Positions 33,110-36,016 of a DNA stretch of 64,000 nt are shown here, in pieces. This DNA comes from an uncultured Bacteroidota bacterium (GTDB lineage Bacteria; Bacteroidota; Bacteroidia; UKL13-3), in assembly GCA_903850915.1 (NCBI GenBank), contig CAINMV010000029.1:124001-188000 (forward strand), read 5' to 3'. How positions within the stretch are numbered: position 1 is the stretch's first letter; every line of letters begins with the position of its first letter. Below the pieces are notes generated by a model. That model did not search any database. It saw nothing but the letters and a program-made list of their open reading frames with translations, and was not told where the DNA came from. The position numbers and the translations under genes were made by a program.

Positions 33110-33128
33110 ATCGAATAATATTTTGCAA

Positions 33129-33136
33129 CAAAATTA
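33129..33136 (-). promoter_or_regulatory. -7 box TAATTTTG for the aminotransferase
   Basis: The minus strand reads TAATTTTG, an exact TAnnTTTG match, 20 bp before the ATG at 33109. No -33 element is seen at the usual spacing. Confidence 0.45.
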
Positions 33137-33284
33137 ACATTTCAAAGCCTTAGTTACGAATATTAAAATATGACTTTTAACCACCTTTGACCTTTCATTT
33201 AGCATAATTTGAAAGTAAAAACCAATGGAATTAAAGAATTGAAAATCCGAAAATTCGTTTTAGTTGTTGATGAACTTTTCCAAT

Positions 33285-34196
33285 TTAAATTTCACCATAA
33301 ATTACGGTGTTTTTAAACGCATTGTATTCTTCTAACTGAAAATTATTCATAGGTGTTCTTTGTTTAAATATCTTACCTATATTAATTATTAAACCATACA
33401 ATGCGATAATGACAGACAGAATTACGCTAAAATCTTTATTCTTAACTTTAAACAATTGATGTTTAATGCTCGAAAAGAAATAACAAAATGCTTTATCCAT
33501 GGGATAGAACATAAATATATTATACCAACCTGTTCTTAAAGACATATATCTCCGTCTAAAGTTATCTTCCTTTAGTCTTCGGTGCTTTAAATTAACCCTA
33601 TGATGGACGACAATATCCGGAGTAAATAATGTTTTCTTCCCATTAATGAAAAGATGCAAGGATGCAAAATCCTCCTCACCATAAAAGCCATACCATATTG
33701 GATAGTCCGGAATCAATTCCTATGCCTCCTTTCTACAAGCACAACCGCACCCTACAAATCCTTTAACATAGCTAACATTTGCGCATGACTTTGGGATATC
33801 ATTAAAGTAATTTTCGCTCCAAAATATATTAAATGCGAGTAGCCCAACTTCAGGATATTTATTGAAATATTCCTCGATCAAATCCGTGAAGTTTGGTGTT
33901 ATGAAATTTGCATCGTCATCCAAATTTATGGAAAATCGGGAAGGGAAATAATTATTTAACAAATCATTTCTATTTCTTAAAACACCTTTTTTAGTCTGAT
34001 TTTGAATAACCTCAATAGAAAAATTATTCTTTAGGGCTTCGGCTTGGCTTACAGAATAAGAATTGTCGTCAATAACCACAATCGGAATCTCAGGATTTTT
34101 TTCACGTAAATCAACTAAAGTAATTCTCAACTCATTAAAACGTTCACACGAAGTAATATGTATAATGCAATTTAATGACCTTACAGTTTTATCCAA
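33285..34196 (-). pseudogene. Family 2-type glycosyltransferase interrupted by one in-frame TAG
   Basis: Two stretches of one reading frame (34196-33723 and 33719-33285) are separated by a single TAG at 33720-33722 on the minus strand. Upstream part: GT-A fold with IVVIDDNSY and INLDDDANF (metal-binding DxD region). Downstream part: GFYGEEDFASLHLF, the ED motif of family 2 enzymes, then HHRVNLKHRR and a hydrophobic segment near the C-terminus. The junction reads CACRKEA-stop-ELIPDYP, a natural continuous sequence, so a point nonsense mutation (for example TGG to TAG), an assembly error or readthrough explains it. Complete length would be about 303 residues. Start codon TTG. Codon use is more AT-rich than that of neighbours. 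Confidence 0.8.
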
Positions 34197-34630
34197 GTAT
34201 AGATAATTGATGTGTATTTATTAATGTTAGTAAAAGCTAATAATATCTGAAAGTCCCTCTTTAAAAAAGGAGTTAGTTTTCAAAAATCGCGTCACTTTTA
34301 CCTCGAGAATCAGATTTAAGAACTAACATTTCTGATCCTTAGAAAAACGAAGATAATGTAATTGATTTTATAAAGCCCTAATGACTTATTGAAATTGTTT
34401 TGTATTCACACTAAAGTTATAATACGAAAGGATTTTTCAAAAAATCGATTATACTTTCATGTTGCTTAAATTATCGAAATGGCTGTTAATGATACTTTAC
34501 AGTTATTAAACAAACTAAACAAATAATTTTATGTTGAAAAAGGAATTAGTAAAAAGCGGTTCAATCAGGGGATTATACCTAATTGAACCGCTTTTGTAAT
34601 TTTGAGTTAGTTTAAAAACAAATTGATTGA
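34197..34630. other. 434-bp AT-rich intergenic region
   Basis: No convincing reading frame, tRNA or repeat is seen. It holds the upstream end of the interrupted glycosyltransferase and, at its right edge, the terminator of the T9SS cargo gene at 34552-34595. Confidence 0.6.
34552..34595 (-). terminator. Strong intrinsic terminator of the T9SS cargo gene
   Basis: A perfect 14-bp stem: AAAAGCGGTTCAAT (34552-34565) with ATTGAACCGCTTTT (34582-34595). A T-run follows on the minus strand. It lies 36 bp after the stop of the gene at 34631-35704. Confidence 0.88.
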
Positions 34631-35704
34631 CTAATTGTTTTGTAATTTTACAACTTTGCTTACCACTACTTGTTGATCGAAGATAAAACGAAGGTAATAA
34701 ACACCAGCAGGTAATTTACTTGTTACATTTTCTAATGACCCAATATGTAAACCTTCCGATTGCATATCATTCTGTACAATTTGCTCGCTGTATTTTCCAG
34801 CTAAGTCAAATAAAGTGATTGATACGGGTAGTTTTGAGCGCAAAAAATAGTTGTATGTAATTTTATCGCTGAAAGGATTAGGAAAAAGAGAAACACTCAC
34901 ATCATTTTTTCCAGAAGCATTAAGTGAACCATTAAAGCTTGAGCCAACAGAACTATTTGAAACATTACTATTGTATTGACTTGTATTGGTTGAAGCAGTT
35001 TGAATTATCTCTGTCTTGCCATTTGAAAACTTGTTTTCTACAATAGTAATTATCATTACCGGGTAACGATATCCTGTGGCATACCATGCATATTTAGAAA
35101 TGTTTATTTTTACTGATCCACATGGGTTAACTTGAATACCCGTTTTCTGAGTTTTAACACGAAGAGCATCTTTAATTACCATATCTGGCAATATTAAAGT
35201 ACCTGTAGCATCAGCAGTTACTTTGTTTTCACCACTGAAATCAATGCGGTAGTTTTCGTTAAAATAAGCCACTGCTGTAAATGGATCAGTGAATTGATCT
35301 CCATAGGCAAATGGATACTTCATTTTCAAGACGGGATTAGAGTAAACCAAATTCATGTTCTTCTCTTTATTGATATATCCCATTTCCTCTATTTTAGAGT
35401 CAGTGGTATTTAAAAAGAAGTTGTAACCTCCTTCATTTAAGGTTAAATTATGATCACCAAGACCCGATAACTGCAAGTTGTCGTTAGATTTAATCTCACT
35501 AACCGGATTTTTATCAGAATAGTTAATTTTAGAATAATCCCAAATCTGATTTAACCCGTCAGAACCTGGCGTAACAAATTCGATTTCACGTATGGTGTAA
35601 GAATCGCCAGAAATTAAACCGTTGGTTGAACGTGTTAAAGTGGTTTGCGCAAATAATCCAAATGAAGTAAAGAGCAAAGCAGTTGTAGAAAGTAAATTTC
35701 TCAT
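34631..35704 (-). CDS. Secreted protein with T9SS sorting domain, function unknown
   Basis: 357-residue exported protein. The signal peptide is MRNLLSTTALLFTSFGLFAQ. The middle has no recognised catalytic motif and looks beta-rich, with many Asn, Ser and Thr. The last 75 residues form a type A T9SS sorting domain (SLFPNPFSDKITYNY ... LPAGVYYLRFIFDQQVVVSKVVKLQ). A Ser/Asn-rich linker (SNVSNSSVGSSFNGSLNAS) precedes the sorting domain. It is a single gene with its own strong terminator. The phylum has many such unknown cargo proteins. Confidence 0.82.
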   Translation of the reverse strand: MRNLLSTTALLFTSFGLFAQTTLTRSTNGLISGDSYTIREIEFVTPGSDGLNQIWDYSKINYSDKNPVSEIKSNDNLQLSGLGDHNLTLNEGGYNFFLNTTDSKIEEMGYINKEKNMNLVYSNPVLKMKYPFAYGDQFTDPFTAVAYFNENYRIDFSGENKVTADATGTLILPDMVIKDALRVKTQKTGIQVNPCGSVKINISKYAWYATGYRYPVMIITIVENKFSNGKTEIIQTASTNTSQYNSNVSNSSVGSSFNGSLNASGKNDVSVSLFPNPFSDKITYNYFLRSKLPVSITLFDLAGKYSEQIVQNDMQSEGLHIGSLENVTSKLPAGVYYLRFIFDQQVVVSKVVKLQNN

Positions 35705-36016
35705 TATTTAAACAATATTTTAAATTTGAATACAATGATAACTAATTTTGATCGATTTTATTGCATAACATTCTAAAAATATTTATTTTTAGTTTCTAAC
35801 AGCTGTTAGTTTGCTTGTCTAATTAATTGGTCTTTTTACACTTACGGCCTAATAAAATTAAGTGTTTCAAGATTTTTTATTCGAAACTAGAATAAACCGT
35901 TAGTCGGCAATTGCGAATTGTCAACGAATTGATTTGAGCTGGATGGATTATAAAAAAGTGCCCTCGAAATATTAGTTCGAAAGTGCTTAAATGATAATTG
36001 GCAGAAAGAAATTAAT
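35705..36016. other. 312-bp intergenic region between T9SS gene and nuoN
   Basis: AT-rich, no reading frame. It must contain the promoter of the T9SS gene and the end of the nuo transcript. A weak inverted repeat (TCGAA ... TTCGA near 35963-35980) is the only hairpin I see for nuo termination; it lacks a clear T-run. Confidence 0.5.

Follow-up and report, generated by a model that had tools for sequence, protein, structure and literature searches.

The minus strand of the window (by which we mean the whole 64,000-nucleotide stretch of DNA that was analysed) carries at 33285..34196 a GT2-type glycosyltransferase gene, written in a single frame and interrupted by one in-frame TAG. The sequence-only reading gave this location correctly and named no strand; on the plus strand, 33285-34196 contains many stops. 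The frame opens with a TTG at 34196..34194 and closes with a TAA at 33287..33285. Its 303 codons contain no frameshift, and TAG 33722..33720, which is codon 159, is the sole stop ahead of the terminal TAA; no further decay, in the form of frameshifts or extra stops, was found in the frame. Taken as open reading frames, the two sides are 34196..33720 (158 aa, ending in the TAG) and 33716..33285 (143 aa, ending in the TAA), both on the minus strand and in the same frame. There is no ATG at the beginning of the gene. The first possible start is TTG 34196..34194, which lies 7 codons past the upstream in-frame stop and aligns with the Met start of the relatives.

The N-terminal half (33723..34196, minus strand, 158 codons) is the nucleotide-sugar-binding part, with a DD at 34065-34070 and a DDD, the DxD motif, at 33912-33920. 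The C-terminal half (33285..33719, minus strand, 144 open codons and the TAA) holds YGEED, the EED of which is encoded at 33669-33677, as well as HHRV and the C-terminal helices. GT2 enzymes are characterized by a GT-A fold and by two motifs, a DxD and, further downstream, an acidic ED, and here the two motifs flank the TAG at residue 159: DDD occupies residues 93-95 before it and the acidic EED residues 174-176 after it. When read through, the frame (303 residues) scores 30.7 bits with the Pfam model Glycos_transf_2 (PF00535), against a gathering cut-off of 23.3. The N-terminal half alone scores 32.3 bits (cut-off 23.3), while the C-terminal half alone gives no Pfam match above the cut-off, yet is aligned throughout with the relatives. 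Thus, of the features expected of a GT2 family member, the model score, the DxD and the downstream acidic motif are present, and an uninterrupted frame is not. Because the Pfam score exceeds the cut-off and dozens of relatives align with almost the whole frame at 30-41% identity, the frame is not a chance one; both sides of the TAG are coding. The suggestion made from the sequence alone, that this is a near-complete family 2-type enzyme with a single in-frame TAG, is therefore borne out.

The gene belongs to a 2.9-kb stretch (33110..36016), reaching from an aminotransferase gene to nuoN, that was not seen in four congeners. In all four of them the gap between nuoN and the aminotransferase gene is short (159, 159, 161 and 177 bp) and holds no glycosyltransferase gene. 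The same lineage-specific stretch contains an intact neighbour gene with a type IX secretion sorting tail (34631..35704, minus strand). Outside this tail, the best matches of its protein within the genus are weak and come from two genomes, with 28% identity over residues 10-234 and 13-226.

Between the neighbour and the glycosyltransferase gene, ~35 nt past the stop of the former, lies a near-perfect hairpin with 18-nt arms and a T-run at its end (34552..34595, minus strand; -27.4 kcal/mol, z -9.7). A terminator pattern scan did not list it as terminator-like. The hairpin is possibly the terminator of the neighbour gene; in that case, transcription of the glycosyltransferase gene may depend on a separate promoter. 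The Bacteroidota-type promoter consensus has 5 matches in the window, compared with 6.1 expected, and none at the 5' side of the gene; sigma-70-like sites number 17, compared with 16.0 expected. A search for repeats at the borders of the 2.9-kb stretch returned only short imperfect pairs, which we took for chance.

Conservation and predicted fold around the TAG

The column of the alignment that corresponds to the TAG is occupied by Trp in all 26 relatives of a first, smaller set and in all 98 distinct full-length relatives of a wider one. The wider set derives from 106 relatives (26 + 80), from which 7 sequences identical to others and L132 were left out; the latter (302 aa), which is likewise intact, has Trp at the same column and is the 99th such case. 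It should be noted that the relatives were picked by similarity, and that the scan pattern, WFxFYGEE, is located near the TAG column and does not include the column itself. In the sister group the column is Tyr in 12 of the 12 members examined, and I, F, F, W and I occur in five enzymes that are more distant. TAG is one substitution away from the Trp codon and from the Tyr codons. Trp in the relatives, together with Tyr in the sister group, suggests that a conserved aromatic residue very probably stood at codon 159. A comparison of this codon in relatives had been proposed from the sequence alone, with TGG, TAT or CAG as the expected finding, and a sense residue is indeed what both groups carry. 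The finding that would have spoken against a lesion, namely relatives made as two separate proteins, was not seen: the 98 aligned relatives are single chains of 296-320 residues.

Outside the 98, a few short and weaker matches span stops, with E near 1e-4 (G165, G849, G803 and G490). In a distant relative (G667:C145:12772-13659; 28% identity over residues 3-292) we observed one in-frame TGA within a frame of 716 codons.

A threshold of at least 97% conservation among the 98 relatives selects 32 columns, the TAG column excluded. Of these, the query keeps 29, 15 of 17 before the TAG and 14 of 15 after it. At the other columns it matches the majority residue in 80 of 262 (36/133 before and 44/129 after the TAG; Fisher p 4e-11 overall). 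For the same 32 columns, each relative keeps at least 31, and members of the sister group keep 23 or 24. This retention, observed on both sides of the TAG, indicates that most of the divergence arose under constraint, and it agrees with the earlier view that both sides read as natural sequence with the DxD and ED motifs kept. In the smaller set, the query has lost 8 of the 39 columns that are invariant in the 26 relatives, which can be read as the mark of an early branch or of some relaxed constraint.

A structural model of the protein, read through with Trp at position 159, forms one GT-A fold (mean pLDDT 92.1, pTM 0.90). Residue 159 closes a short helix (156-159) and precedes the helix that carries EED. 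The best structural matches of the model are GalNAc-transferases at Z about 21, among them GalNAc-T2 (4d11_A; Z 21.2, rmsd 3.3 Å over 260 residues, 15% identity), the alignment spanning residues 7-295 of the model; the fucosyltransferase WrtF (9omm_A) aligns with Z 18.2 over 223 residues at 11% identity. A sequence search of solved structures gave no match.

Relatives and origin of the gene

The glycosyltransferase gene is present in a single copy in its own genome. The four other genomes of the genus yield nothing at E <= 1e-3, and among the 63 other genomes of the family 2 have a match, weak and partial in both cases (27% and 23% identity); the search at the level of the order covered the same 64 genomes as the family search. 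Across the phylum, matches occur in 33 of 395 sampled genomes, a count that includes the own genome. The best five others are near full-length, with 34-38% identity, and all fall within one other family, where 64 of the 397 genomes searched have a match. Another 395 genomes sampled from the class provided none closer. An initial scan of genome contigs with a single protein as the query found nothing; when a collection of 84,980 species was scanned with the alignment, 186 loci were confirmed, of which the best 80 were kept. These 80 are mostly titled Flavobacterium and other Flavobacteriaceae. Among the matches listed, identity reaches 41% at most (best segment); the closest relatives found share ~40%, and no donor was found among the genomes searched.

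By title, the exceptions among the best 80 of the 186 loci include Limnohabitans, Rhizobium, Bdellovibrio and Saprospiraceae bins, which may represent contamination. The copies titled Limnohabitans, Rhizobium and Bdellovibrio (L099, L126 and L145, respectively) fall inside the flavobacterial tree, and they perhaps reflect bin contamination, mislabelled bins or transfer.

In a quick tree, which included 63 of 116 rows, the query is the first branch of the Trp set (SH-aLRT 99), and its end branch amounts to 1.5 changes per site. The length of this branch makes the exact place of the query in the tree unsure.

The composition of the gene was compared with that of 129 stop-to-stop segments of at least 300 codons, drawn from the window plus 14 other stretches of the contig. 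The overall G+C of the gene is 31.5%, compared with a mean of 37.7% (sd 2.5), and 2 of the 129 segments are lower; third-position G+C, however, is 29.4% compared with 32.5% (sd 3.6), which is within one standard deviation and not unusual. At -0.044, the C-terminal half has a codon score below the 1st percentile of the long segments (-0.004), and the N-terminal half, at 0.054, lies between their 5th and 25th percentiles, in a comparison in which lengths are unmatched. The sequence-only reading had called the gene AT-rich and possibly transferred. The first point holds for overall G+C, while the ordinary third-position value weakens the argument from composition. Since third-position G+C is ordinary and the codon score of the N-terminal half unremarkable, a lateral origin rests mainly on distribution, and here the suspicion of transfer gains support from the absence of the gene at the locus in four of four congeners, from the lack of a match at E <= 1e-3 in the four other genomes of the genus, from the scarcity of matches in the family (two, both weak, in 63 other genomes) and from the mostly flavobacterial relatives.

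A phage origin was considered and rejected: there was no match in a collection of 50,697 phage records and none in two scans of viral contigs. The PHROG glycosyltransferase matches of the gene are two (E 1.7e-5 and 0.039). A search of plasmids returned one weak match, to a Halobaculum plasmid (30% identity over 37% of the query), and no plasmid DNA matched the 2.9-kb stretch.

TAG as a stop codon and a possible restart

The use of stop codons was surveyed in 344 kb, made up of the window plus 14 stretches of its contig, from segments of at least 60 codons with a codon score of at least 0.08. TAG ends 46 of these 191 gene-like segments, TAA 140 and TGA 5; both halves of the glycosyltransferase gene score below 0.08 and are thus outside the 191. 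RF1 is present (476.8 bits, cut-off 423.25). A CUA anticodon occurs in none of the 31 tRNAs found, which came from the scoring of 150 out of 200 first-look candidates. PylS, for which the cut-off is 178.15 bits, scores no more than 22.3. Since TAG ends so many segments, RF1 is present and none of the tRNAs found reads TAG, we regard it as an ordinary stop in this genome; given its use as a segment end and the presence of RF1, we rejected a change of the genetic code.

The tRNA set itself is incomplete, as tRNA-Ile (GAU) and tRNA-Ala (UGC) are not among the 31 tRNA genes (L171-L201). Such gaps are common in drafts without an rRNA operon.

Ten adjacent same-frame pairs split by exactly one stop were found, with the first ATG of the second member at codon 2 to 21, and these resemble ordinary neighbouring genes. 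In the C-terminal half of the glycosyltransferase gene, the first ATG comes only at codon 59.

A Shine-Dalgarno-like AAGGAGG (33725..33731, minus strand) is located within codons 156-158, 8 nt ahead of a TTG at 33716..33714, which is itself 3 nt beyond the TAG. Among 124 start regions of the contig, starts being defined as the first ATG of long frames, none has AGGAG or GGAGG; truncated forms of the motif precede 2 of 124 starts, compared with 7 of 124 in the control stretch. AAGGAGG itself occurs 37 times in the 344 kb, both strands counted, where 25 occurrences are expected. Bacteroidia ribosomes have, moreover, been reported not to recognise Shine-Dalgarno sequences (PMC9976891). As no start of the contig shows such a motif, we read the heptamer before the TTG as probably a matter of chance, produced by Lys-Glu-Ala codons.

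Interpretation and comparison with known systems

In our opinion, the locus is best explained by a recent nonsense mutation in a laterally acquired orphan GT2-type gene, which would now be either a pseudogene of recent date or a broken allele that segregates within the population; we assign this reading a probability of roughly three in four. A gene for a GT2-type enzyme with a GT-A fold would have been gained laterally, probably from the surface-polysaccharide gene pool of Bacteroidota, and would have come to stand alone between nuoN and the aminotransferase gene. One recent nonsense change would then have hit the conserved aromatic position. Translation should end at codon 159 and yield a 158-residue fragment with the nucleotide-sugar-binding half; lacking the EED motif and the acceptor side, this fragment would most likely be inactive as an enzyme. 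The frame is disrupted while all 98 relatives are intact and have Trp, and this, together with the conserved residues on both sides of the TAG and the intact phase of the frame, supports the suggestion of a recent lesion made from the sequence alone. We infer the loss of function, the recency and the lateral origin with its direction from sequence comparison, and the recency in particular is a matter of inference because the nearest relatives found are only ~40% identical. The long end branch (1.5 changes per site) and the 8 lost columns of 39 could mask relaxed constraint.

The interruption may also belong to the record alone, through an error of base calling, of assembly or of the population consensus, with the gene of the organism (mostly) intact. 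The genome is a draft of 37 contigs, and the rest of the gene looks intact both in the model and at the conserved columns, as such an error would predict; the TAG, however, is situated in the middle of a 359-kb contig, and single-base substitution errors are rare at normal depth. We therefore consider an error unlikely and a nonsense mutation the more likely event. Functional readthrough, in which the TAG would be suppressed at a low rate and serve as a throttle that lets a little full-length enzyme be made, is consistent with the conserved residues retained on both sides, and a gene maintained in this way would look alike, with no frameshift and no second stop. In-frame stops are widespread in bacterial genes, many with dN/dS below 1, according to the accessible text of Belinky et al. 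2021 (PMC7918605), but the stops described there are common to orthologues of two or more species, unlike the present one, which is common to none of the 98 relatives (the nearest ~40% identical). TAG is, moreover, an ordinary stop here, with RF1 present, no suppressor tRNA among the 31 and PylS below the cut-off. Near-cognate readthrough needs neither a suppressor tRNA nor PylS, neither loss of RF1 nor reassignment of TAG. On balance, we find readthrough quite unlikely; the normal use of TAG, RF1 and the lack of a TAG-reading tRNA among those found leave the option, which the sequence-only reading had raised, unsupported.

The heptamer, perfect and well spaced, with a possible start 3 nt past the TAG, also invites the idea of a split enzyme, in which the N-terminal half would end at the TAG, the C-terminal half would restart at TTG 33716..33714 and the halves would assemble. 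The absence of AGGAG or GGAGG from all 124 contig starts, the reported failure of Bacteroidia ribosomes to recognise such sequences (PMC9976891), the frequency of AAGGAGG (37 occurrences, 25 expected, in 344 kb) and the single-chain form of all 98 aligned relatives (296-320 residues) argue against this, and we hold it to be extremely improbable. That the TAG acts either as a throttle with some readthrough or as the border between cistrons of a two-chain GT-A enzyme with a restart at TTG 33716 appears to us very unlikely, and neither readthrough nor a split enzyme has positive support. A GT2-type gene with one nonsense stop is most likely an ordinary case and not unusual biology.

A recent nonsense mutation in an acquired gene would mean little beyond its own genome: it provides a small, clear case of a gene, probably acquired and of polysaccharide type, whose frame was lost while the rest is well kept. 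It also serves as a warning that gene callers may report two hypothetical proteins here, or none. Were the frame still read, it would be of interest as a case of readthrough or of stop and restart in Bacteroidota, and a restart from AAGGAGG would then occur in a phylum in which ribosomes usually disregard motifs of this kind. Our literature search returned nothing on this gene among the matches listed, as judged by title and the start of the abstract.

The closest known counterparts are the single-chain GT2-type enzymes of Flavobacteriaceae (for instance L091, L092 and L094 of Flavobacterium and L093 of Meridianimaribacter), which align with almost the entire query and are 33-41% identical to it. 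They have the DDD, YGEE and HRV motifs in common with it and belong to the same tree group (SH-aLRT 99), but they are uninterrupted and have Trp at the column at which the query has TAG. The genomic setting also differs. Five loci of relatives were inspected, and in four of these (L034-L037) the scanned neighbours encode NeuB, a cytidylyltransferase, a methyltransferase or other glycosyltransferases; in the fifth (L038), the sole neighbour scanned has no Pfam match. Unlike L034-L037, the query gene adjoins nuoN and the aminotransferase gene, and polysaccharide-type neighbours are absent on both sides. The polypeptide GalNAc-transferases and WrtF have the same fold as the query; with identities of only 15% and 11%, no common specificity can be claimed.

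At the level of gene fate, the gain and loss of acquired genes are the subject of Van Passel et al. 2008 (PMC2275313), who dealt with Escherichia coli. According to Belinky et al. 2021 (PMC7918605), in-frame stops in bacteria are mostly short-lived, and the sequences that hold them have dN/dS below 1. That study deals with stops common to orthologues of at least two species, whereas the present one comes from one genome; its cases resemble ours in that a single in-frame stop interrupts a gene that is otherwise well preserved.
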